From positions 186,001 through 250,000 of the IMG/VR virus record IMGVR_UViG_3300044641_009805: a stretch of 64,000 nucleotides of DNA; one strand, given 5' to 3'. The notes below the pieces were generated by a model. The model did no database searches, was not told the origin of the DNA, and saw only the letters and a list, made by a program, of their open reading frames with translations. Source of the DNA: a virus. The translations under genes and the position numbers were made by a program. Of the stretch, positions 26,944 to 47,416 are shown in pieces. Position 1 is the first letter of the stretch; each line of letters starts with the position of its first letter.

Positions 26944-29526
26944 ATGAAAACATACACGTATAATGAAGCATATGAAGCATCGTTGGACTACTTTAAGGGA
27001 GACGAGCTCGCTGCATCAGTCTTTGTTTCAAAGTACGCGCTGCGCGATTCTAAAGGAGGCATTTTAGAAAAGACGCCTACTGACATGCATCTGCGTCTCA
27101 CTCGTGAGTTTGCTCGTATTGAAGCCAAGTATCCAAATCCTCTTTCGGAGAAAGAGATTTTCTGTCTCCTTGCTGACACTGATCATCTAGACGTCACACA
27201 AAAGTCGACAATGACGCTTGAACAATTGGCAGCCGAATCGCGAGGCATTGGGGCAGTCGTTCCGCAAGGTTCTCCAATGTCTGCCATGGGCAATCCATAC
27301 AAGCTTCAATCATTGTCTAACTGCTTCGTTATAGCTTCTCCGCAAGATTCTTATGGCGGAATTCTATTCACGGATCAGGAACAGGCGCAAATCATGAAAC
27401 GTCGTGGTGGCGTTGGTTTCGACGTCTCTACGATTCGTCCCAAAGGCCTTGCCACAGCCAATGCAGCTGGAACGACCGATGGTATCGGCGTCTTTATGGA
27501 GAGGTTCTCCAACACATGCCGTGAGGTTGCTCAAGGTGGTCGTCGTGGAGCACTAATGCTCACAATTTCGGTGATGCATCCTGAGGTTGAGACTTTCATC
27601 AACATCAAACGAGATCTAAAGAAAGTCACAGGAGCAAACATCTCTGTTCGTCTCACTGACGAATTTATGAATGCAGTGAAAGATGATAAGGAATTTACTC
27701 TTCGTTGGCCAGTCGAGGTACCTGTTGAAGAAGCTAAAGTTACCAAGATCGTCAAGGCTCGAGAGCTTTGGAATCAGGTCATCGATGCCGCATGGACTTC
27801 TGCAGAACCAGGTCTTCTATTCTGGGATACAGTCAAGAAGATGACACCAACTGAGGCATATGCTTCAAAAGGATACGCCAACGTTTCTACGAATCCTTGC
27901 GCTGAGCTGATTCTCAGCCCTTACGATTCTTGCCGCCTTCTTCTCATCAACCTCACAAAGTTTGTGAAGGACGCATACCTTCCCACGGCTTCATTCGATT
28001 TTGATAAGTTCAAGAAAGTTTCTGCAAAAGCGCAAAAGTTGATGGATGATCTTGTCGATCTTGAGATTGAGGCCGTCGATGCTATCTTGAAAAAGATTGG
28101 ATCCGACCCTGAGAGTGAAGAGGTCAAACAACATGAGGTCAACCTCTGGCAAAAAATCAAAAAAGCTGCCTCAGGCGCCCGTCGCACAGGACTTGGAATC
28201 ACTGGCATCGGAGATGCTCTGGCTTCGATTGGCGTAACCTATGGTTCTGAAGAGTCAGTTCATAAGACAGAAGAGATTTATAAAACGTTGGCTCTTTCCG
28301 CTTATCGATCTTCAGTCGACATGGCAAAGGACAGAGGATCATTCCCCGTCTATGATTGGTCTTTAGAAAACGAAAGTCCATTTTTAAAGAGAGTTATGGA
28401 AGCTGATAAGGCCTTATTTGCAGATTGGGTGAAATACGGTCGTCGCAACATTGCGTTGACAACGACTGCTCCGGCAGGGTCTGTTTCATGCCTCACGCAA
28501 ACGACAAGCGGTATTGAACCAGCTTACCTTCTTTCCTACACACGCCGTAAGAAGATTAACCCTAATGACACCGCATCACGAGTTGATTTTATCGATCAGC
28601 TTGGTGATAAGTGGCAGGAGTATAAGGTCTACCACCACGGTTTCAAGAAGTGGATGGATGCCACAGGAAAGGTAGATGAGCAAATTGCAGAGTCACCCTA
28701 CTGGAAGGCAACAAGCAATGATGTTGACTGGCCTATGTCCGTCAAGCTTCAGGCTGCTGCTCAAAAGTGGGTCTGCCATGCAATCTCTAAGACCTGTAAC
28801 CTTCCTAATGATGTGACAAGAGAAGTTGTTGCTGACGTTTATATGGCTGCCTGGGAGGCCGGATGCAAGGGTTTCACTGTCTATAGAGATGGATGCCGTA
28901 CAGGCGTTCTAGTTCAGGATACTCCCAAGGAGACAAAGAAGGTTGATGACAGCCAGCCAGAAACCATGATAGAAAATCATGCTCCAAAGCGACCGAAGGA
29001 ATTACCATGCGATATTCATCGAATTAACGTAAAGGGTTCTGAAGGTCAGGAATCATATCTTGTCCTGGTCGGCAGGCTTGAAGGAAAGCCATACGAGATC
29101 TTCTGTGGCCTATCACATCACGTTGAAGTTCCGAAGAAGGCGAAGGTAGGAAATCTTATCAAGAATGGTAAGAAGGATGGAGTTGCAACATACAATCTTC
29201 AGATTCCTGTTGGGGATGACGATAACCTTGTTTTCAAGGACATTGTGGAGTTGTTCTCCAATCCAAATCACGGAGCTTTTACAAGATCCCTCTCGCTTGC
29301 TCTACGCCATGGGGTTCCTGTTCAATACGTTGTTGAACAGCTACAAAAAGACAAATACAGTGATATGCAATCTTTCTCTAGAGTCTTGGCCCGCGTTCTA
29401 AAAGGATACATTCCTGACGGCGCAAAATCAACGTCTGACAAGACGTGTCCTGAGTGTGGATCTAACTCTCTAGTTTACAAAGAAGGATGCGTCACATGTA
29501 ACAGCTGCTCTTGGAGCAAGTGTTGA
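26944..29526 (+). CDS. nrdJ: Class II (adenosylcobalamin-dependent) ribonucleotide reductase
   Basis: An 860-residue protein. Active-site residues are visible: the redox Cys in LSNCFVI (Cys127), the finger-loop NPCAE with the radical Cys319 and partner Glu321, and the second redox Cys330 in YDSC. The C terminus is a zinc ribbon with CPEC and CNSC pairs and a final CSWSKC, as in NrdJ proteins that are re-reduced by thioredoxin. No small subunit gene is seen nearby, consistent with the B12-dependent class. It makes dNDPs or dNTPs for phage DNA. ATG 26944 is preferred over TTG 26926. It carries no intein, although NrdJ is a known split-intein host. Confidence 0.88.
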   Translation: MKTYTYNEAYEASLDYFKGDELAASVFVSKYALRDSKGGILEKTPTDMHLRLTREFARIEAKYPNPLSEKEIFCLLADTDHLDVTQKSTMTLEQLAAESRGIGAVVPQGSPMSAMGNPYKLQSLSNCFVIASPQDSYGGILFTDQEQAQIMKRRGGVGFDVSTIRPKGLATANAAGTTDGIGVFMERFSNTCREVAQGGRRGALMLTISVMHPEVETFINIKRDLKKVTGANISVRLTDEFMNAVKDDKEFTLRWPVEVPVEEAKVTKIVKARELWNQVIDAAWTSAEPGLLFWDTVKKMTPTEAYASKGYANVSTNPCAELILSPYDSCRLLLINLTKFVKDAYLPTASFDFDKFKKVSAKAQKLMDDLVDLEIEAVDAILKKIGSDPESEEVKQHEVNLWQKIKKAASGARRTGLGITGIGDALASIGVTYGSEESVHKTEEIYKTLALSAYRSSVDMAKDRGSFPVYDWSLENESPFLKRVMEADKALFADWVKYGRRNIALTTTAPAGSVSCLTQTTSGIEPAYLLSYTRRKKINPNDTASRVDFIDQLGDKWQEYKVYHHGFKKWMDATGKVDEQIAESPYWKATSNDVDWPMSVKLQAAAQKWVCHAISKTCNLPNDVTREVVADVYMAAWEAGCKGFTVYRDGCRTGVLVQDTPKETKKVDDSQPETMIENHAPKRPKELPCDIHRINVKGSEGQESYLVLVGRLEGKPYEIFCGLSHHVEVPKKAKVGNLIKNGKKDGVATYNLQIPVGDDDNLVFKDIVELFSNPNHGAFTRSLSLALRHGVPVQYVVEQLQKDKYSDMQSFSRVLARVLKGYIPDGAKSTSDKTCPECGSNSLVYKEGCVTCNSCSWSKC

Positions 29527-29534
29527 GTAGTAAT

Positions 29535-29798
29535 ATGAAATTAAAAGCCAAAGATCTTCGTAGGATAATAAAAGAAGAATTTTCTAGCACAATTCCTGAC
29601 TTTATGTTACGTCAAATGGCGGAAAAGTGCTCTGAGGATCTTAAACGATTGATGATAAATCACATTAAAGTAAAATCACCAGCTGATCGTACTTATATGA
29701 TTGCTTTAGCTAACAAAGTATCTGAAGACTTGGAAGAAGAAGTAAAAAAGTTACTCGACGAAAAACTATCGGAGTTTTTGAATAGATCTTCTCATTGA
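29535..29798 (+). CDS. Small tagged helical protein (LRRIIKEE N terminus)
   Basis: An 87-residue protein opening MKLKAKDLRRIIKEEF, the clearest version of the tag seen across this genome. After the tag it is all helix, rich in Lys/Glu/Leu, without catalytic motif. ATG 29535 is chosen because the tag starts there, although a longer frame from TTG 29511 is open. The IKE within the tag matches T4-type prohead protease cleavage. I infer a packaged internal protein. It lies between NrdJ and ThyX, so it is inserted among metabolic genes. Confidence 0.6.
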   Translation: MKLKAKDLRRIIKEEFSSTIPDFMLRQMAEKCSEDLKRLMINHIKVKSPADRTYMIALANKVSEDLEEEVKKLLDEKLSEFLNRSSH

Positions 29799-32367: not shown

Positions 32368-32889
32368 ATGAAAATAACTCATAATCAGCTTAGAAGAATC
32401 ATTAAAGAAGAGTATGAAAGAGCAACACCAGTTCAACCTGGACAGATAATGTCAGAAGCTAGAGCCATGTATCTGGCTGAAGAGGTCATGAACGAGGGAT
32501 TTTTTAAGAATGTTTGGGCGGGTCTCACAGGCGCGGGAAAAGAAGCTGGTAAAAAAGCTGGAGCTGCTAAAGATGTGGTAGTTAAAAAAGCCACAGCTGC
32601 AGGACAAGAAATTTCAGCTGCTGCTAAAAGATTTGCGGAACCAATCGCCGCTGCTGGAAGAACTGCAGTAAAAGCAATAGAAGACATTAAAGACGCAGGC
32701 ACTCGTGCTGCCGCTGAAAGTGCAGCAGCTGAATTGAAAGCCGCCTTGGAACCTATGATTAAGAAGCAAGTTGCAGAGCTAATCAAAAATGAAGTCAAGT
32801 CAGGAAAAGACGAAGCAGCTGCTAAAGTAGAAGCAGAAGCAATAGTCATGAATGCTTTAGCAGCTGCTCTGATGGGTATAGGAACTTGA
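32368..32889 (+). CDS. Ala/Lys-rich tagged protein, probable packaged DNA-binding or internal head protein
   Basis: A 173-residue protein starting MKITHNQLRRIIKEEY. Further possible (L/I)-X-E-type sites follow (YLAEE, then VMNEG near residue 40). The remainder is a long Ala/Lys/Glu helix with repeats of the type AAKDVVVKKATAAGQEISAAAK, similar in look to apolipoprotein- or histone-H1-like helices. The composition suits a DNA-associated internal protein. It lies after the Hsp20 terminator behind a TATATATAA stretch, so it probably has its own promoter. Confidence 0.6.
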   Translation: MKITHNQLRRIIKEEYERATPVQPGQIMSEARAMYLAEEVMNEGFFKNVWAGLTGAGKEAGKKAGAAKDVVVKKATAAGQEISAAAKRFAEPIAAAGRTAVKAIEDIKDAGTRAAAESAAAELKAALEPMIKKQVAELIKNEVKSGKDEAAAKVEAEAIVMNALAAALMGIGT

Positions 32890-37543: not shown

Positions 37544-38100
37544 GCAAGAAAAAAATTACCGAATCTTTACACATGATGTTGACGATCGAACCAAACTTAA
37601 ACATCATTACAGAAAATATGATGGCTGAGTGGGGAAATGTTCCTTATTGCCAGCTTTCTGTTGTTTTAGTTCATCTAAAATTTTTGGCAGAACTACACCA
37701 GAATCATCACTGGACTTGCATGGGAGATCCATTCTACGGCGATCATCTTCTTTTTCAACGATTGTATGAAGGCGTTTCTGCAGAAGTAGATTCAGTTGCT
37801 GAAAAAGCTATAGGTCTTGGATCAACTTCCAACGTCAATATTCAGCTGATTCATTCTCAAATGTTAAAGCTCATTTCTAACGTTGGATCAGGTATGACGA
37901 TTCCGCAATCGACTGATTTAGCAAAACGCTCAATGATTGCAGAGTTGAACTTTTTGAAAGTAATTGATCACGCGATGTCTTCTTTGAATGAGTGTGGAAT
38001 GTTGTCAAACGGTATCGATAATTTGTTACAAGGCATTGCAGACAAACATGAAGGACATGTTTATCTCTTAAAACAACGTTGTTCCAAACAGGCCGTTTAA
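37540..38100 (+). CDS. Dps/ferritin-like protein
   Basis: A 186-residue all-helical protein. It carries the Dps-type ferroxidase signature: LAELHQNHHWTCMGDPFYGDHLLFQRLYEGVSAEV (His, His, Asp, Glu spacing), followed by DSVAEKAIGLG, the equivalent of the AER...LGG segment of Dps. Later helices match a four-helix bundle. Dps proteins bind iron and compact DNA; here it may protect phage DNA or store iron. The N terminus (MSKKKITESLHMM) is basic. It overlaps neighbours by four bases and is three bases before a tagged gene. Confidence 0.7.
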   Translation: MSKKKITESLHMMLTIEPNLNIITENMMAEWGNVPYCQLSVVLVHLKFLAELHQNHHWTCMGDPFYGDHLLFQRLYEGVSAEVDSVAEKAIGLGSTSNVNIQLIHSQMLKLISNVGSGMTIPQSTDLAKRSMIAELNFLKVIDHAMSSLNECGMLSNGIDNLLQGIADKHEGHVYLLKQRCSKQAV

Positions 38101-38102
38101 AC

Positions 38103-38663
38103 ATGAAAATTAAATTTGAACAGTTAAGAAGAATCATAAAAGAAGAAATTACTCTTGCAAAATCAGGCGAAAATCAAAGATTTTTACATGGACCTGACGA
38201 TGAAGGTGCAATGGTAAAATCTAGTTTGTCAGCCATGATGAATATGGCTTCTGATATTCAAGATGTCATGGCAGACGATGATCAACTCCCGGGTTGGGTT
38301 CAAGATCATCTTTCTGTTGCTCATGAAAATCTGCAACAGGTTCATGGTTATTTGATGGGAACATTGAAGCAAGAATCTAGATCTAGTAATCAGAAAAAAA
38401 ATATTTCAGAGTCTATTTCTAAGATTACGACAAGAGAAATTAAAGAATGGTCGAAAGGCAATTGGGGATTCATTTCTGAGACATCTCAATCTGTTGACCC
38501 CGATCGAATTAGAGAAGTTTGGGAAGACCTAGGCGGGTACAATGGCTCTAAAGTTACAGTTGAAGATATAGCTTTAGAATTGAGAGTTCTTCCAACGGAT
38601 GTTAACATGAATGGAACAGGCCTTGTGGTTCTTGATGGTGTTGTACAAAGAGAGTCATTCTAA
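38103..38663 (+). CDS. Tagged protein, probable packaged protein
   Basis: A 186-residue protein beginning MKIKFEQLRRIIKEEI, a clear copy of the tag. The segment MNMASDIQDVMADDDQLPGWVQDHLSVAHENLQQVHGYL is a compact helical module I associate with virion proteins of large marine phages. The second half has an unrelated globular domain (WGFISETSQSVDPDRIREVWEDLGGYNG). The ATG is three bases after the Dps-like gene, so the pair is cotranscribed. Function unknown. Confidence 0.6.
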   Translation: MKIKFEQLRRIIKEEITLAKSGENQRFLHGPDDEGAMVKSSLSAMMNMASDIQDVMADDDQLPGWVQDHLSVAHENLQQVHGYLMGTLKQESRSSNQKKNISESISKITTREIKEWSKGNWGFISETSQSVDPDRIREVWEDLGGYNGSKVTVEDIALELRVLPTDVNMNGTGLVVLDGVVQRESF

Positions 38664-38680
38664 CATTCTGGAATCGACGT

Positions 38681-39934
38681 ATGGGTGGTAATACTAAGGC
38701 TATAGATCGTGAGACTGGAGAAGTTGTAAACTTCTTTGGTCGTCCTGGGTATGCAGACAAAATAGATCTTAAAAAATTAGATCGCTCTTCTCTAAAAAGA
38801 TCTATCATTACTGCTTTAAAAAATTTGGATTCGTCGTATGAGAATGAATTTGGCGTTCCTATTTGGGATCGTTCGCAACGAAATTCATTACTCTCATCCG
38901 GTGAGGCGTTTAACGGATCTTCTGAACATCTATTCAACGATAAAATAACGGATAAAGAATTCACAAAATTTAAGCCTTCGGTAGGCGATATTGACTTGAC
39001 AGTTCCTGCTGAAAAAATAGAAACTATATTTGATCTACTAGCTTCTCTTGAAGGAAAAGAAGTGGTACCTGGGAAAATTTGGTATGTAGGACAAAATAGA
39101 AAAAAGTACGGAGGAGATCAAATAAATGCTTTGTTTGCGTACAGGCAAACAAAAGACGCAGACCCAGTATTCGTTCAAGTTGATTTTGAATCAGTAGACT
39201 ATGCTGGGGGGCGTCCGGATTCATTTGCGAAATTTGGACATTCTTCGGCTTGGGAAGACGTAAAAGAGGGCGTAAAAGGCGTGTTCCACAAATATTTGTT
39301 GAGATCTCTAACGACAAAATCAACTCTAAATGATGCAGTCATTCTTGCCAAGAATAGCCCAGTATACCCACCAGAAAAAATAAAGATTAAGAAGAAATCT
39401 GATCCAATTAAGCTGCTCTCGTTTTCTGTTTCGCAAGGGTTGAGAACCACTGTGGAGTTGCAGAAATACCCTGACGATCCTAATATTCCGAAAGAACTAA
39501 TCGGTCAACCTGTTAAATTAGGAGATTCTTTCGTTTATAGAGAACTATCAACAGCAGAATCAAGCTACGTAAAAAATATAGACGAAATATTTACGTTGTT
39601 GTTTGGTAAGGTTCCTTCGTCGTCAGATGACATGACAAAATTGCAATCTTTTTCTGGTATACTTTCGTTAATGAAAATGTATATGTCAGATGATGACATA
39701 GAAAATATCTACGAAGATTTTGTTAATGAAAAGCTATTTTCTCCTGAAGCTCAAGGATTAGATTTGACAAGTGCAGAAGTAGATAAATCTTCGAAGCTCG
39801 CCGCCGTAGGAAGATTTAGAAAAGAGTTTCCGTTTTTGGCAGAACCAGATGCGACCATGGTGCAATCTTATTATTCTTCGTATAAGATAAGAGAATCTAT
39901 ATCCAGGTATATACGCATCTTATTCGGTCGATAA
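38681..39934 (+). CDS. Nucleotidyltransferase-like protein with C-terminal tag-like end
   Basis: A 417-residue protein. The segment FKPSVGDIDLTVPAEK fits the Gly-Asp-x-Asp motif of the pol-beta nucleotidyltransferase fold, and FVQVDFESVDY could supply the third acidic residue. Other conserved-looking parts are FGHSSAWEDVKEGVKGVFHKYL. The chain ends KIRESISRYIRILFGR, which resembles the tag seen at N termini elsewhere. The gene is one of a trio with the ligase fusion and a phosphoesterase (39935, 41620), suggesting nucleic-acid end processing. This is inference. Confidence 0.5.
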   Translation: MGGNTKAIDRETGEVVNFFGRPGYADKIDLKKLDRSSLKRSIITALKNLDSSYENEFGVPIWDRSQRNSLLSSGEAFNGSSEHLFNDKITDKEFTKFKPSVGDIDLTVPAEKIETIFDLLASLEGKEVVPGKIWYVGQNRKKYGGDQINALFAYRQTKDADPVFVQVDFESVDYAGGRPDSFAKFGHSSAWEDVKEGVKGVFHKYLLRSLTTKSTLNDAVILAKNSPVYPPEKIKIKKKSDPIKLLSFSVSQGLRTTVELQKYPDDPNIPKELIGQPVKLGDSFVYRELSTAESSYVKNIDEIFTLLFGKVPSSSDDMTKLQSFSGILSLMKMYMSDDDIENIYEDFVNEKLFSPEAQGLDLTSAEVDKSSKLAAVGRFRKEFPFLAEPDATMVQSYYSSYKIRESISRYIRILFGR

Positions 39935-41620
39935 ATGTTAGATATTTCAATTCTAGAACTAAAAAAAGCAGTCAAGACTCCGAAGGCTGCCTCTAATTTT
40001 ATCAGAAAGCATATCAAGGTTGTCGAGAAAATCGACGGAACGAAACTTACCTTGATACGCAATGATGCGCAATTTGACCCAAATGACTATACAAAAAACT
40101 GGATTATTTCGTATAAGGGAAACATCATTTATTCTACGGAATTTTCTGGATTGGAAAAGAGAGATAAAGACATTAAAACGTCTGGGCTAGGTACGTCTCA
40201 ATATAAATTTGTGTATGATCATTTGAAAAGAGTCCATGAAGGAACTGCTTCAATTCCTCTCAATACAGAATTTTTTATAGAATTTGTTCAAAATAAACCT
40301 ACTGTAACTAGAGATTATGCGAAGAAACACGGCATGTTCTTGGTCGGATTTGGGCCGGCAGTGTATGCATCATCTAAAGGGCAAATCTATTCTTCATCCA
40401 CATTTGTTGATGATCCTGCTAAGTTAGAAGAGTACAGAGAAATATTACAGTTAAATTCTTTTCCATTACTCTACGAAGGTAATTTGTCTTCTAGGACGGA
40501 GATATTCGATAATAGCGAATATCTTGATCCAAGGCTTAGAGAATTATTCTCACAGAATCTAGAGACAGTGGATTTTTCAAATCCGCAAGAGATTCTTGAC
40601 GGAGTTGTTAGTTCTTTTCAAGCTTTGGAGTCCTCGTTAGGAGGACAATCAGAAGGAGTTGTCATCACCGTCGAAGGTGATGACATGTCTGAGAAGCAGC
40701 TATATAAAGTTTTAGCAGCCGATCAACACAACAAAGAAGTAAGAGAGAAAAAGAAATCTAGGTATAAGGGCACCCCGCAAGAAGAAGCAGCGTATTGGGA
40801 AGACATCAACGCTACTACTGATCTAATTCTGGACGAATTGCAGATTGATGCTAGGGATTCTCGACCTGAAGAAGCGTTGAAAGACTTGTCGGCAAGAGTT
40901 TATGAGATGTCTGAAGAAGACATAGGAGCATATCATCCTGTTAAAACTCTTTTAAATAAGCAAGAAGATTTAATGCTGACTGCTAAAACCAGATTGTTCG
41001 TTTTAGGTCATAGACTCAAAAAGATAGCTGTCATTCCTATGGCTGCAAAACCTTTTCACAGAGGTCATCAAGCGTTATTGGATGCAGCAGAAGCAGACGG
41101 AAATGAATTAATTCTAGTGTATGTATCTACGGGGGGAAGAGACGAAATAAGTTCTTCTGACATGGTCCCGTTGTGGAAAAACTACTACTTGCCAGCCATA
41201 CAAGAGACGTATGGAGATAAGGTCGCCATCAGGTTCACAAAAGGAATTTCTCCCATGTATGAACTGAGATCTGCAATCTCCAACCTAGTCAGACAATCAG
41301 AAGAAACAGTAGTGACTCTTTATGGAGATCCAGAAGATGCTGCCCGCCGCGTCGACGATATAATCAATAACGAAAAAAACGTGGTTGATCTAACGAGAAA
41401 AGTCGTGGCAGGATCGGTACCCAGAGAATCTTCCGGCGGAATTTCTGGCACAAAAATGAGAGAATTTTTGTCGACTGGACAAAGAGAACAGTTCATGAAG
41501 AATTTGCCTGATTTTTTGAACGAAGATTCAAAACTAGCAATTTGGAATTCTTTGTCAAAAAGTAAAGTTTCGCAAAGTGAAAATCTATTGAAATCATATG
41601 TAAGATTAATTCTTGCATAA
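39935..41620 (+). CDS. Polynucleotide ligase domain fused to a NadM-type nucleotidylyltransferase
   Basis: A 561-residue two-domain protein. The N-terminal domain has the ligase adenylation motif KIDG at residues 32-35, a later FFIEFVQ strand and SEGVVITV (motif IV) around residue 240, as in RNA ligase-like enzymes. The C-terminal domain has the HxGH motif (HRGH, residues 375-378) and the ISGTKMR motif (503-509) of the NMN/nicotinamide nucleotidylyltransferase superfamily. It might seal nucleic acids and also make NAD or a related dinucleotide. The end NLLKSYVRLILA resembles the tag found elsewhere. Fusion of these two is unusual. Confidence 0.7.
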   Translation: MLDISILELKKAVKTPKAASNFIRKHIKVVEKIDGTKLTLIRNDAQFDPNDYTKNWIISYKGNIIYSTEFSGLEKRDKDIKTSGLGTSQYKFVYDHLKRVHEGTASIPLNTEFFIEFVQNKPTVTRDYAKKHGMFLVGFGPAVYASSKGQIYSSSTFVDDPAKLEEYREILQLNSFPLLYEGNLSSRTEIFDNSEYLDPRLRELFSQNLETVDFSNPQEILDGVVSSFQALESSLGGQSEGVVITVEGDDMSEKQLYKVLAADQHNKEVREKKKSRYKGTPQEEAAYWEDINATTDLILDELQIDARDSRPEEALKDLSARVYEMSEEDIGAYHPVKTLLNKQEDLMLTAKTRLFVLGHRLKKIAVIPMAAKPFHRGHQALLDAAEADGNELILVYVSTGGRDEISSSDMVPLWKNYYLPAIQETYGDKVAIRFTKGISPMYELRSAISNLVRQSEETVVTLYGDPEDAARRVDDIINNEKNVVDLTRKVVAGSVPRESSGGISGTKMREFLSTGQREQFMKNLPDFLNEDSKLAIWNSLSKSKVSQSENLLKSYVRLILA

Positions 41621-42177
41621 TGAGAATTTTTTTTAGTTCTGACACTCACTACTTTCATGCGAACATCATAAAATATTGTGATAGACCTTTTAAAACTGTC
41701 GATGAAATGAATGAATTCATGATAGACGCGTGGAATTCATTCGTAGATGAAGATGATTTAACTTTTCATCTTGGCGATTTTTCGTTGTTGCGTCCCGTGG
41801 ACTCCGATCAACTAAGAGATGTAATAACCAGATTAAAAGGTAAGAAAATTCTCGTTAAAGGTAACCATGACAAAGATAGTGACTCGTTTTTTTTAGATGC
41901 AGGGTTTAAAAAAGTATACGATTCTATCAACGTAGCAGGCGTTTTGCTTGTCCATTATCCGTTGCACGAAGCTTTTTCTAGAAAAGTAAAAGATTCTCAT
42001 TGGGGTGAAGTGTCTCACGTAATACATGGACATTCACACGATAAAAAAAATCCTAATCTAGAAAATCATTACAATGTAGCCGTAGACAGGCATGAATTTT
42101 GTCCTGTTTCTTTGCAACAAGCAGTTCCTGAAAATTTGCAAAAGAATTTCTTTTTAGAAGCAGTTAAGCTTTTTTGA
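41620..42177 (+). CDS. Calcineurin-like phosphoesterase
   Basis: A 185-residue protein, compact for the family. Motifs in order: SDTHYFH, HLGDFS, GNHDKD, LLVHYPLHEA and IHGHSHDKK. These form the binuclear metal site. It begins with TAATG overlapping the ligase stop, so it is cotranslated with it. A role in removing phosphate from nucleic acid ends or nucleotides fits the neighbouring ligase and nucleotidyltransferase-like genes. Confidence 0.8.
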   Translation: MRIFFSSDTHYFHANIIKYCDRPFKTVDEMNEFMIDAWNSFVDEDDLTFHLGDFSLLRPVDSDQLRDVITRLKGKKILVKGNHDKDSDSFFLDAGFKKVYDSINVAGVLLVHYPLHEAFSRKVKDSHWGEVSHVIHGHSHDKKNPNLENHYNVAVDRHEFCPVSLQQAVPENLQKNFFLEAVKLF

Positions 42178-42218: not shown

Positions 42219-43286
42219 ATGCAACGTTCATTGTGCTTCGATGATGTACTGCTCGTCCCTCAACTTTCAGACATAGAGTCTAGATCGCATGTAGATCTTT
42301 CAGTGCCGGGATTTGACTCCGCTTTTGCTAGCTTAACCGACAAACACGAACAATTAAAGTGTCCCATTGTCGGTTCTCCTATGGACACAGTAATAAGTCC
42401 TCAGTCGGCGGCTGTCATTGCAAAGCTTGGAGGCTTCGGAGTTTTGCATCGATACTGTTCAATCGATGATTCTAAAAAGATGTTTCTTGAAACGGCTAAA
42501 CTATTGCTTGATGATTGTGACAATAGTTCTTCAGCTTTTATCCCGAACTTGATGGTGGCTGTTGGTGCGACGGGTGATTATCTTGAAAGAGCAGGTGAAC
42601 TATACGACGTGGGTTGTAGGGCTTTCTGCGTTGATGTTGCGCATGGTCACCACACAAATGTTAAAAATGCTCTAAATAAGCTAAGAGTAAAATTTGGTAA
42701 AAAAATTCACATAATGACTGGCAACGTTGCAACTTTGGAAGCCTTCAATGATCTTGCTGACTGGGGTGCTGATTCCATACGTACCGGTGTCGGAGGAGGA
42801 TCCATGTGTACAACGAGAATTCGCACGGGACATGGAGTTCCAACGCTGCAATCAATCATCGATTGTGCAAAATCCGACAGGGACGTTTACATTGTAGCAG
42901 ATGGTGGAATTAGGAACAGCGGCGATGCAGTGAAAGCTCTAGCTGCTGGAGCGGACATGGTGATGCTAGGATCAGTTCTTGCTGGACATGATGAATCCCC
43001 AGGAGCAATCATTACAAAAGACAACCAACGTTACAAGAAGTTTCGCGGAATGGCTTCAAGAGAAGCGCAATTGGAATGGAGAGGTAAGGTGTCCGTTGCT
43101 GAAGGAGAGTCAACGTTGATCCCTTACAGAGGTTCTCTTCAAGATACTTTGACAGACCTGCTTGAAGGCATTAAATCAGGTCTGTCATATTCAGGCGCTA
43201 AAAGTATTAGAGAGTTTAGAAGCAAAGCTAAATTTTTAGGTATCACTTCAAATGCTGTCAAAGAAAATGGTCCTCACGGAAAGTGA
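42219..43286 (+). CDS. IMP dehydrogenase/GMP reductase-family enzyme
   Basis: A 355-residue TIM-barrel enzyme with no CBS domain insert. It has [11 protein letters not shown] and SPMDTVIS at the N terminus, the catalytic loop GGGSMCTTR with its Cys, and [17 protein letters not shown] for the phosphate site. The length resembles GMP reductase, but the loop after it (LAGHDESPG) and the C-terminal end (KENGPHGK) mix features of both enzymes, so I cannot choose between IMPDH and GMPR. It would affect guanine nucleotide supply. IMPDH is a known host of environmental split inteins; this copy is intact. Confidence 0.82.
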
Positions 43287-43831: not shown

Positions 43832-46800
43832 ATGACGAGAGACAATAAAACAGCTTCACCTACCAGATTCGTGGGTCTTCATGCGCATTCTACATTTTCG
43901 CAGTACGATGGTCTCGATTATCCTCAAGAGCACATTGATTACGTGCTAGAAAATGGCATGGACGCTTGGTCGTTGACTGACCATGGTAACATGAATGGAT
44001 TCTGTCACGCTTTTCTTCATGCCGAAAAGATGAAAAAGTCAGGAAAGAACTTTAAGTTTATCCCTGGCTGCGAGATGTACGTTCATCCTGATCTTACCCA
44101 GTGGAAAAAAGATCTGGAAGCGTCCAAGGTAAAACCTGCAAAGGACGAGTCCATCATTACTCCTATCACCGCGGTCGTTGATGGCGATGACGAGACGACA
44201 GACGTTGGTACGGATGAAGCAGCTTTGACTGTTGAGAACGAGGACGAGACGAAGTCAGGTAAATACAATGATCCCGTCAAGCGTCGTCATCATCTAGTCG
44301 TTCTACCAAAAACCTCAGTAGGCCTTCAACGTCTGTTCCACCTGGTATCCAGGGGATACATGGAAGGATTTTATCGATTCCCTCGAATCGATTATTCGAT
44401 GCTAAAAGAAGCAGCAAAAGGTGATCATCTCATGATCAGCACAGCTTGTTTAGGTGGTCCTTTGGCTTTCGACGCTTTCGAACAGCTTCAAAAAGTTCCG
44501 TTCGAAGAATTGAAACACCAATTGCTTAACGACAGATCACTTTTGGATCGTATCATTGCTACGATGAGTAACACTTACGACAAGTTAGTTGATGCCGTCG
44601 GTCGCGATAACGTATGTCTTGAACTACAATTCAACAAGCTCCCTGCTCAGCATCTTGTTAATCGAGCTCTCATTGAGTTTTCCAAACGAAATTCCCTGCG
44701 CGATAGAGTGGTGGTTACTTGCGACTCGCACTATTCACGACCAGAAAACTGGAAAGAACGAGAGATTTATAAGAAGCTAGGTTGGCTTAACTATCAAAAC
44801 TTTGATCCAAGCTTGTTGCCTAAGTCTAAGGACGATTTAAAATGCGAATTGTATCCCAAAAATGCCAAGCAGGTGTGGGAATCTTATTTGTCTACGACGG
44901 AAGGCATGGATTTCTATGACGATGAATTTGTTAAGGACGCGATTGAAAGAACCCATGATATCGTTCATAACGAATTAGGTGACATTCAGCCTGACAAGAC
45001 AATGAAGCTTCCTTCTTACGTGATCCCTGAGGGAACCACGGAAGATAAGGCACTCGTGGTTGCGTGTAAAAATGGATTGAAGTGGAGAGGTCTAGACTCA
45101 AGACAAGACTACATCGACAGAATCAAATATGAGCTAGGCATCATCAAAGGTAAGAAGTTCTCTAGGTACTTCTTGACGATGAAGGCTATCATGGATATTG
45201 CTCGTGAGCATATGTTGATCGGACCAGGTCGTGGATCAGCTGCTGGTTCACTTGTAGCCTATGTTCTTGGAATTACGAATTTGGATCCAATTGAATATGA
45301 TCTTTCTTTTGAAAGATTTTTGAATCCTTCTAGAACAGGTGCCCCTGATATTGACTCTGACATCTCTGATCGAGATTTATTGATTGAACTTCTTAGAAAG
45401 AATCTTGGCGAAAGGAACGTCATTCCTATCTCCAACTACAACACCTTCAGGTTAAAGAGCCTCATTAAAGATATTGCTCGATTCTACAGTATCCCTTTTG
45501 AGGAAGTCAACGCTGCTCTTGCTCCTGTCGAGGATGATGTCAAGAAGGAGGTCTTTAAACCAGGAACAGACAAGAACTTGTTCGTTCTTACATACGAAGA
45601 CGCCATCAAATATTCAAAGTCTCTACAAGACTTCATTGCTGCACACCCCGAGGTGGCCGAACCAATTGAGATTTTATTCAAGCAAAACCGTTCTTTGGGC
45701 CGCCACGCCGGTGGCGTCATCGTATCAGAAGATGTCGCCGAAAGAATGCCTCTAATCCTTGCTCGCGGTGAGGCCCAGACACCTTGGGTCGAAGGCATGA
45801 ACTATAAACATCTCGAAGAATTTGGGTGGATCAAGTTCGATCTGCTAGGTCTTGAAACCTTGCGTATCATCGAACGATGCATCGGCCTAATCCTCGAGCG
45901 CCGGGAAGGTGTAAAAAATCCTGATTTTAAGCAAATTCGAGCGTGGTTTGATAAGCATATGGATCCGAAGAACATTGATCTGAACGATCAAAAAGTCTAC
46001 GAATATGTTTACCACGAAGGTAGGTTCGCAGGTATCTTCCAGCTAACACAAACAGGTGCTCAGCGGCTGTTTACGAAGGCTAAACCACGTAGCATCATCG
46101 ACATTGCCACTCTTACTTCGATCTATCGTCCTGGTCCTCTTGCGGCTAACGTGGATAAACTTTATATTGATGCAAAGAATAATCCTGACAAGATTGATTA
46201 TCAACATCCGTTGATCAAAAAAGTCCTCGAGTCTACATACGGTTGTATCATCTTTCAAGAGCAGACCATGAGGTTATGTTCTGTGGTGGCGGGATTCCCT
46301 GAGGCTGAGACTGACACCATCCGTCGTAACATTATGAAGCGCAGCGCGTCTAAGAAAGACGATGCTGCAGCGGATGCGAGGAAAGCAAAAGAAGAGTTCG
46401 TGTTAGGTGCTGTGAAGAATGGCGTAAACGAGAAGGTCGCATCTGAACTATACGATAAGATTCTATTCTTCTCTGGATACGGCTTTAATGCCTCGCATGC
46501 CGTGTCTTATGCAATTGATTCTTACTATTGCGCTTGGCTCTTGACTTATTATGAAGAGGAATGGCTATGCGCATATCTCGAATCGATGTCAGGAAACGAC
46601 GAGAAACGAGCCAAAGCTTTTTCAGAAGTAAAAGCGCTAGGATATAAGATCGTTCCAATTGACGTAAACTACGCGACAAAGAGCTGGACAATCTTGGAAG
46701 GTAAACGATTCATGCCAAGCTTCTTGTCTTGCAAGGGAATTGGAGAGGCTGCTATCGATGAAATCGTCGAGAACAGACCTTACAAGAGTGTCGAAGAGAT

Positions 46801-47416
46801 GTTGTGGAATGATGATGGTTCATGGAAACATTCCAAATTTAACAAGCGAGCTTTTGAAGGTCTCATCTCCATCAGAGCGTTTGACTCTCTTGACTGCGTA
46901 GGTGAAGGAAAAACATTTAACAGCTACAAACAGATGCATCACATCTTGATTGATAAAGGTGCCGATATCAAGAAAACTTCAAAGAAAAATCCTACTCTCG
47001 GTATGGAAAACTTTCGAAATCTTTTGATAGAAACAAATGACATGGATGAGTGGACTCGTGGGGAGTTGGTTGACAACAGCGTGAAATATCTTGGATCATT
47101 CAACTCTAACATTTTAGTTTCTCAAGAACTGATTGCAAAGCTAGAATCTAAAGGTGTCAAATCCATCGACCTCATCGAGCAAACTGACGTTTATTGGTTC
47201 ATTATTTCTGACGTAAAAGAAAAAAAGACGAAGAACGGAAAGCCATACTTGCTTCTGACGGCAATAGGCCTTGAAGGCCAAACCCGTCGGATCTTTTGTT
47301 GGGGATGGGATGGCCGAACTGAGTTGCCGAAGTACTCCACATGCATAGCAGAAATTACTGTCGATAATTACGGTAATAAAACTTTTATGAGCAAGGTTAA
47401 GGTAATCGATGAATAA
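43832..47416 (+). CDS. dnaE: DNA polymerase III alpha subunit (family C replicative polymerase)
   Basis: A 1194-residue protein, the usual DnaE length. The N-terminal PHP domain starts GLHAHSTFSQYDGL and includes DHGNMNGF. Catalytic Asp residues are in PDIDSDIS (Asp506, Asp508) and KFDLLGL (Asp670), matching E. coli Asp401, Asp403, Asp555. GRGSAAGSLVAYVLGI and IIFQEQTMR are conserved palm/finger motifs. The C-terminal domain has an OB-fold-like region. Family C replicases are unusual in phages with a T4-like tail; together with the small family A enzyme the phage encodes two DNA polymerases. No intein, though this gene is a known split-intein host. Confidence 0.92.
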   Translation: MTRDNKTASPTRFVGLHAHSTFSQYDGLDYPQEHIDYVLENGMDAWSLTDHGNMNGFCHAFLHAEKMKKSGKNFKFIPGCEMYVHPDLTQWKKDLEASKVKPAKDESIITPITAVVDGDDETTDVGTDEAALTVENEDETKSGKYNDPVKRRHHLVVLPKTSVGLQRLFHLVSRGYMEGFYRFPRIDYSMLKEAAKGDHLMISTACLGGPLAFDAFEQLQKVPFEELKHQLLNDRSLLDRIIATMSNTYDKLVDAVGRDNVCLELQFNKLPAQHLVNRALIEFSKRNSLRDRVVVTCDSHYSRPENWKEREIYKKLGWLNYQNFDPSLLPKSKDDLKCELYPKNAKQVWESYLSTTEGMDFYDDEFVKDAIERTHDIVHNELGDIQPDKTMKLPSYVIPEGTTEDKALVVACKNGLKWRGLDSRQDYIDRIKYELGIIKGKKFSRYFLTMKAIMDIAREHMLIGPGRGSAAGSLVAYVLGITNLDPIEYDLSFERFLNPSRTGAPDIDSDISDRDLLIELLRKNLGERNVIPISNYNTFRLKSLIKDIARFYSIPFEEVNAALAPVEDDVKKEVFKPGTDKNLFVLTYEDAIKYSKSLQDFIAAHPEVAEPIEILFKQNRSLGRHAGGVIVSEDVAERMPLILARGEAQTPWVEGMNYKHLEEFGWIKFDLLGLETLRIIERCIGLILERREGVKNPDFKQIRAWFDKHMDPKNIDLNDQKVYEYVYHEGRFAGIFQLTQTGAQRLFTKAKPRSIIDIATLTSIYRPGPLAANVDKLYIDAKNNPDKIDYQHPLIKKVLESTYGCIIFQEQTMRLCSVVAGFPEAETDTIRRNIMKRSASKKDDAAADARKAKEEFVLGAVKNGVNEKVASELYDKILFFSGYGFNASHAVSYAIDSYYCAWLLTYYEEEWLCAYLESMSGNDEKRAKAFSEVKALGYKIVPIDVNYATKSWTILEGKRFMPSFLSCKGIGEAAIDEIVENRPYKSVEEMLWNDDGSWKHSKFNKRAFEGLISIRAFDSLDCVGEGKTFNSYKQMHHILIDKGADIKKTSKKNPTLGMENFRNLLIETNDMDEWTRGELVDNSVKYLGSFNSNILVSQELIAKLESKGVKSIDLIEQTDVYWFIISDVKEKKTKNGKPYLLLTAIGLEGQTRRIFCWGWDGRTELPKYSTCIAEITVDNYGNKTFMSKVKVIDE

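Follow-up and report, generated by a model that had tools for sequence, protein, structure and literature searches.

Three adjoining genes in a 64,000-nucleotide stretch of phage-like DNA (the window, bases 186001–250000 of the 278,435-base IMG/VR record IMGVR_UViG_3300044641_009805) probably form a single module for healing and resealing cut nucleic acid, the most likely target being tRNA cleaved by anti-phage ribonucleases of the host. The genes, here designated P1, P2 and P3, are predicted to encode a Pol-beta-type nucleotidyltransferase, an RNA ligase-like protein fused to an HxGH-type nucleotidylyltransferase, and a calcineurin-like metallophosphoesterase, respectively. An earlier, sequence-only reading of the same DNA had connected the three genes with end-healing and sealing pathways, and this is supported by the recurrence of the same genes, in different orders and with a Pnkp-like kinase added, in relatives of the module.

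Gene content and conserved residues

The module occupies positions 38681–42177 of the window and consists of three abutting, plus-strand open reading frames (ORFs), exactly where the sequence-only reading had placed three adjoining genes. The ATG of P2 begins at the first base after the P1 stop codon, while the P2 stop codon and the ATG of P3 share one base (TAATG). The genes and their key residues are as follows (window coordinates).

38681..39934, + strand: P1, Pol-beta-fold nucleotidyltransferase, 417 amino acids (phrog_19290, motifs, model, PDB folds)
38915..38920, + strand: P1 G79-S80, hGS motif of Pol-beta nucleotidyltransferases, invariant in 29 homologs
38987..38995, + strand: P1 D103-I-D105, predicted catalytic Asp 1 and 2, invariant in 29 homologs
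39176..39184, + strand: P1 Q166-V-D168, predicted catalytic Asp 3, invariant in 29 homologs
39935..41620, + strand: P2, RNA ligase-like and HxGH nucleotidylyltransferase, 561 amino acids (phrog_27149, motifs, Foldseek)
40028..40039, + strand: P2 motif I, K32-I-D34-G35, with the predicted nucleotidyl-acceptor lysine; K, D and G invariant in 33 homologs
40280..40282, + strand: P2 motif III, E116, invariant
40652..40657, + strand: P2 motif IV, E240-G241, invariant
40706..40708, + strand: P2 motif V, K258, invariant
41057..41068, + strand: P2 HxGH motif, H375-R-G-H378, intact in window-like and fused relatives, TxGH or TxAH in the other clade
41441..41461, + strand: P2 ISGTKMR, residues 503-509, kept by almost every window-like or fused relative; most members of the other clade have lost the R
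41620..42177, + strand: P3, calcineurin-like metallophosphoesterase, 185 amino acids (phrog_547, PF12850, PF00149)
41641..41649, + strand: P3 D8-T-H10, predicted metal-binding, at least 90% conserved in 12 homologs
41860..41871, + strand: P3 GNHD, residues 81-84, invariant in 12 homologs
42028..42039, + strand: P3 GHSH, residues 137-140, with G137, H138 and H140 invariant in 12 homologs

P1 matched no Pfam family and belongs to PHROG family 19290 (E 4e-55), the function of which is listed as unknown. It had been described from its letters as a GD-x-D nucleotidyltransferase-like protein, and the comparison of homologs bears this out: D103 and D105 of the GDIDL segment lie within a GS...DxD...QxD pattern, and G79, S80, D103, D105, Q166 and D168 were invariant in 29/29 homologs. 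The AlphaFold model is confident (mean predicted local distance difference test score, pLDDT, 93.1), and a Foldseek search with it placed RelP, an alarmone synthetase, together with DNA polymerases beta and mu at the top of the PDB folds (E about 0.01–0.05), followed lower in the list by OAS1 and H. pylori nucleotidyltransferases, with some tyrosine phosphatases intermixed; most PDB matches are to this superfamily, with E about 0.01–0.1. Since these E-values are weak, the fold call rests on the motifs together with the composition of the fold list; from the hGS motif, the DxD pair, the third Asp and that list, P1 is a predicted member of the Pol-beta nucleotidyltransferase superfamily. Two more specific identities were rejected. 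PF10127, the RlaP profile, was matched by 0/29 P1 proteins and by nothing in the window's record, and a profile comparison with a phage RlaP-like protein revealed no similarity; a CCA-adding enzyme was discarded on the absence of any PF01743 (PolyA_pol) match throughout the record. Two module phages (L046 and L050; L-numbers denote loci from the viral-contig search described below) also carry an RlaP-type nucleotidyltransferase and an NAPRTase elsewhere in their genomes (L046, 12520–13551).

P2 belongs to phrog_27149, likewise of function listed as unknown, and comprises a ligase-like domain (residues ~1–357, including an all-helical tail) followed by an HxGH domain (~363–530). The fusion of a KIDG ligase with an HxGH/ISGTxMR nucleotidylyltransferase, as first read from the sequence, was recovered with KIDG at residues 32–35, HRGH at 375–378 and ISGTKMR at 503–509. 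Residues K32, D34, G35, E116, E240, G241 and K258, which make up ligase motifs I, III, IV and V, were invariant in 33/33 homologs. Structure prediction of the fusion, a check proposed with that first reading, gave a confident AlphaFold model (mean pLDDT 91.1) that led Foldseek to T4 RNA ligase 2 (Rnl2) for one half and to nicotinamide mononucleotide (NMN) and phosphopantetheine adenylyltransferases (NMNATs and PPATs) for the other. The best match was T4 Rnl2 (2hvr, E 2.3e-6), and the fungal tRNA ligase Trl1 was also found (E about 1e-4). In the model, an all-helical segment (residues 267–357) comes after the ligase core, an arrangement shared with Rnl2, and an OB (oligonucleotide/oligosaccharide-binding) fold is not present. 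By its motifs, predicted fold and helical tail, the ligase domain is accordingly classed here as Rnl2-type. It shares these features with the Rnl2 family (PF09414) but is only ~12–15% identical to it in structural alignment, falls below the Pfam cut-off and is fused to an HxGH domain.

The second half of P2 resembles the NadM/CoaD adenylyltransferases in its fold and in its HxGH and ISxTxxR motifs. A P2-family profile compared with PDB sequences recovered NMNATs and PPATs with E down to 4e-8, and Foldseek matched both at about 5e-5 to 1e-4; at the family level, NadM was not recovered for P2, the matches being the generic cyt_tran_rel, below its cut-off, and a weak one to cit_ly_ligase. It differs from NadM and CoaD in having a ligase, not a Nudix or kinase domain, as its fusion partner, in the erosion of its motifs in one clade, and in its presence in a record without an NAPRTase. 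The segments PFHRGH and ISGTKMR are intact in the window, and window-like and fused members keep PxHxGH. In the other clade, which includes Campylobacter and Vibrio phages, HxGH is mostly replaced by TxAH or TKDGH and ISGTKMR by ISATKII. The HxGH and ISxTxxR residues are thus eroded in about half of the P2 family, while the ligase residues are invariant throughout. Because the motif residues are replaced there, the HxGH activity has probably been lost or changed in the Campylobacter/Vibrio-phage clade, with the ligase activity retained.

P3 had been taken for a calcineurin-like phosphoesterase, and it passes the Pfam cut-offs for both Metallophos_2 (PF12850, E 4e-9) and Metallophos (PF00149, E 5e-5). 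Its closest solved relative is aq_1665 (1xm7, E 3e-12), and the metal-site motifs DxH, GD, GNHD, H and GHxH are intact and conserved in 12 module-linked homologs. The window's record holds one copy of this family, the one in the module operon.

Recurrence of the module in other phages

Relatives were sought in 50,697 phage records and, by profile search, in viral contigs, the latter giving 64 loci, which represent a smaller number of independent lineages; the records compared may be incomplete. P2 relatives were found in 15 Campylobacter (CP220 group) and six Vibrio phage records, and P1 relatives in the same Campylobacter and Vibrio phages plus Xanthomonas phage X1. P1 adjoins or is fused to P2 in nearly all viral-contig loci with enough flanking sequence, and about 14 non-redundant contigs encode both as one protein, arranged either as ligase-HxGH-P1 (954–981 amino acids) or as ligase-HxGH-X-P1 (about 1300 amino acids). 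Among whole records holding P2, 24 of 26 also hold P1. In Campylobacter phage CP220 the two genes are about 66 kb apart, so their co-occurrence is not mere linkage. Twelve non-redundant loci have a P3 homolog adjoining P1 and P2, and the genes are arranged in three orders:

P1-P2-P3: the window, L006, L011, L013
P3-P1-P2: L048, L052, L057, L060, L063, L065, L070
P2-P3-P1: L039

Seen again in so many divergent phages, the three-gene grouping is not due to chance. The domains can also be found unfused: L042 has the ligase and HxGH parts on separate genes, and in phage X1 the parts are neighbouring but separate genes: P1, one with a KVDG motif, one that is ligase-like but highly diverged (motifs KLDG, EGVV and YK; it matches the ligase profile at E 0.004) and one with HxGH.

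A kinase joins the set in some relatives. A P-loop kinase of about 180 amino acids is encoded between P1 and P2 in L048, L052, L054 and L070; in L046 it follows P2, and L039 has this domain joined to the N-terminal side of P1. Members of this family match Pfam AAA_33 (6/6) and Zeta_toxin (4/6), and their best PDB sequences are 4gp7, 4jst, 4gp6 and 4mde, in which the molecule is recorded as 'Metallophosphoesterase'; these entries represent Pnkp of Clostridium thermocellum, specifically its kinase domain. The L048 kinase also matches NCBIfam TIGR04075 (bacterial Pnkp) over the kinase end of that model (E 2e-6). Kinase, metallophosphatase and ligase thus occur together in L048, L052, L070 and L039. 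A correlation between the presence of the kinase and erosion of the HxGH motif was considered but dropped, as L039 combines an intact HxGH with the kinase.

Searches in other directions were negative. A scan of genome contigs with the P2 profile, using one pattern, returned no cellular relatives, libraries of known defence systems gave no useful match, and no paper describing this system or a ligase-NMNAT fusion was found in the open-access literature searched. The P1 and P2 genes are not discussed in the searched passages of the principal publications on the Campylobacter phages CP220/CPt10, IBB_35 and CP21.

Some relatives show further elaboration. Domain X of the 1300-residue fusions (L007/L016 residues 562–912, and others) is a region of ~350 residues between HxGH and P1 that carries GDxD and QVD motifs, a weak, motif-level likeness to P1 and a weak PADLOC match to an oligonucleotide cyclase; it is probably a second nucleotidyltransferase. 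In L071 (3754–6095 and 8962–10614), P1 and P2 are each split in two with ORFs nearby that appear GIY-YIG-like or HNH-like, which suggests inserted homing elements.

A proposed pathway and its relation to known repair systems

The analysis shows the gene content, linkage, fusions, fold assignments and the conservation of catalytic residues; from these we infer the RNA substrate, the tRNA target and every enzymatic step, the steps being taken from the protein families concerned. P3 would strip the 3'-phosphate or 2',3'-cyclic phosphate left at the cut, and in several relatives the Pnkp-like kinase would phosphorylate the 5'-OH. The window phage, in whose record a kinase was not found, would need a host enzyme for this second step, or would deal with cuts that already bear a 5'-phosphate. 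P1 could then restore lost nucleotides, and the ligase domain of P2, charged with AMP at K32, would seal the ends. The HxGH half of P2 may be an accessory nucleotidylyltransferase, dispensable in part of the family; it might act on NMN, on some other phosphate compound or on the end of a nucleic acid.

Read in this way, the module has the same kinds of parts (phosphatase, nucleotidyltransferase, ligase and, in relatives, a kinase) as bacterial and jumbo-phage systems, with a different nucleotidyltransferase family and a different ligase fusion. Bacterial RNA end-healing and sealing systems are built from phosphatase, kinase and ligase components, Pnkp being an RNA repair enzyme (PMC4411300). 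The Pnkp-Hen1 and Pnkp1-Rnl-Hen1 complexes have in common with the module a metallophosphoesterase (within Pnkp), a ligase and, in module relatives, a Pnkp-like kinase (PMC4411300; TIGR04075). The phage module differs in having separate genes, in the addition of a Pol-beta nucleotidyltransferase and an HxGH domain, and in the replacement of the Pnkp ligase by an Rnl2-like one; a Hen1 partner was rejected, as the Hen1 methyltransferase (PF12623) was absent from 17 records. In jumbo phages, a Pol-beta nucleotidyltransferase associated with an RNA ligase has been predicted to restore lost nucleotides before ligation, and these RlaP systems are alike in that the nucleotidyltransferase travels with RNA ligase, phosphatases and kinases (PMC7824862). 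They are unlike the present module in that P1 is not RlaP, and some phages carry both families.

Several points weigh against end healing and sealing. The matches of P1 to Pol-beta-superfamily folds are weak, the best having an E-value of 0.013 and all being above 0.01. The Pfam RNA_ligase model scores 20 bits against window P2, below its cut-off of 27 bits, although it exceeds the cut-off in relative L015 (27.9 bits) and is matched by 15/33 P2 homologs at E<=0.01; a profile of the ligase domain compared with PDB sequences retrieved no ligase at E<0.5. In a search of the window's record, neither a kinase of the family seen in relatives nor any AAA_33 protein was found. The P3 family, phrog_547, is widespread in phages (1663 records), and it is not obvious where the HxGH half of P2 would fit among known RNA-repair pathways.

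Repairing RNA is among the chief means by which phages counter tRNA-cutting host defences, and the known kits are few (T4 Pnkp/Rnl1, RlaP systems and KptA). If the proposed pathway is correct, the module would be a further phage RNA-repair kit. Its Pol-beta nucleotidyltransferase family and its ligase fusion are at present listed just as hypothetical proteins, and the corresponding PHROG families 19290 and 27149, both marked unknown, would then gain a function. A further question is what part an NMNAT-like domain plays in the repair of nucleic acids. Since the module is present in Campylobacter and Vibrio phages that can be isolated, it is directly testable.

Alternative functions

The substrate could instead be DNA, with P3, P1 and P2 cleaning, filling and ligating broken phage DNA, much as a small pathway for filling and ligating gaps would. 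The best fold matches of P1 include Pol beta and Pol mu, and the best named NCBIfam match of P3, a weak one, is the ligase-associated phosphoesterase PdeM, both of which agree with such a role. However, T4 Rnl2 and fungal Trl1 are the nearest matches to the ligase fold of P2, which has a helical tail and lacks an OB fold, a separate DNA ligase gene with Pfam DNA_ligase_A_M is already present at 81.5 kb of the record, and the associated kinase is nearest to that of bacterial Pnkp, an RNA repair enzyme (PMC4411300); RNA is therefore favoured, and we regard DNA end processing as unlikely. A role in tagging or protecting ends, in which P1 and each half of P2 attach nucleotides or caps to the ends of RNA, to shield phage RNA or block host tRNAs, is suggested by the presence of three different nucleotidyl-transfer domains in one system. 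HxGH chemistry joins a nucleoside triphosphate to a phosphate end, and the ligase superfamily includes capping enzymes, which also fits. Such a role is nevertheless very unlikely, given that a kinase and a phosphatase, with which a ligase is usually paired in end healing, accompany the module and that the helical tail behind the ligase core is Rnl2-like. The suggestion of the sequence-only reading that the fused domain could cap nucleic acid ends with a nucleotide was neither backed nor contradicted by the results. That the genes are unrelated neighbours with no joint function could be argued from the wide spread of the P3 family in phages, but is contradicted by the P1–P2 fusions in many contigs. 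The co-occurrence of P1 and P2 where they are not adjacent and the reappearance of P3 and the kinase in varying arrangements also speak against it, and it is extremely improbable.

The HxGH domain raises the matter of nicotinamide adenine dinucleotide (NAD). Rnl2/Trl1-like ligases use ATP. The sequence-only reading had suggested that the fused domain could make NAD as the ligase cofactor, and this was not supported: the ligase is Rnl2/Trl1-like, erosion affects the HxGH and ISxTxxR residues of about half the family, and NAPRTase, the partner that would supply NMN, is absent from 17 of the 19 records tested, that of the window included. NAD salvage, too, was rejected as the main function. In a survey, NadV was found in every phage that has NadM (PMC9503650), and against this background the lack of NAPRTase disfavours NAD synthesis. 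A narrower version is that the HxGH half is a working NMNAT that refills NAD during infection, with the ligase and the other enzymes linked to it for a different or combined anti-defence purpose. The best PDB sequence and fold relatives of the domain include NMNATs, and PFHRGH and ISGTKMR are intact in the window, but PPATs match the domain about as well, and the half of the family with eroded HxGH residues is where both NAPRTase-bearing records fall, which makes this version decidedly improbable.

N-terminal leaders and possible packaging in the head

Many proteins of the other clade, among them the majority of P2 proteins and a number of P1 proteins and kinases, carry short N-terminal leaders whose last residues, [LI]xE, precede A, G or S just upstream of the conserved start (e.g., MKLRDFINE-SKEQLDISI). 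The loci with leader-bearing proteins (P2, some P1, kinases and neighbours) are L042, L046, L048, L050, L052–L054, L056, L057, L059, L060, L063, L065 and L070. Within residues 5–24 the motif was present in 45/315 locus proteins versus 43/1583 internal 20-residue stretches, counts that include related and hence non-independent sequences, so that a p-value computed from them is overstated. The T4 prohead protease cuts after L/I-x-E, and T4 internal proteins bear short N-terminal capsid targeting sequences (PMC9026906). It is hypothesized that the leader-bearing proteins, the repair enzymes among them, are packaged in the head and injected. P1, P2 and P3 of the window have no such [LI]xE leader. 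A more elaborate scheme, in which the HxGH half acts directly on nucleic-acid ends by 5' pre-adenylation or capping, making P2 a novel two-headed ligase, and in which the enzymes are carried in the capsid and injected in part of the family so that repair precedes phage expression, appears quite unlikely.

The window's record has a repeated N-terminal tag of its own, MKIxLxxLRxIIREE, on about 10 of 355 proteins compared with 2 of 1275 internal stretches. Tagged genes lie at window positions 38079–38663, 32368–32889 and 29511–29798 and elsewhere in the record (e.g., at bases 39539, 45015, 47138 and 255027), and similar tags occur in L039. The tag is possibly a targeting or cleavage signal.

Neighbouring genes

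The record carries 14 tRNA genes, which counts in favour of the proposed repair pathway. Directly 3' of the module (window 42219–43286) is a gene of the IMP dehydrogenase/GMP reductase family (PF00478, E 2e-92), and beyond it (43832–47416) a gene for a 1194-amino-acid protein that, judged by its sequence, is DNA polymerase III alpha-like with a PHP-type start.

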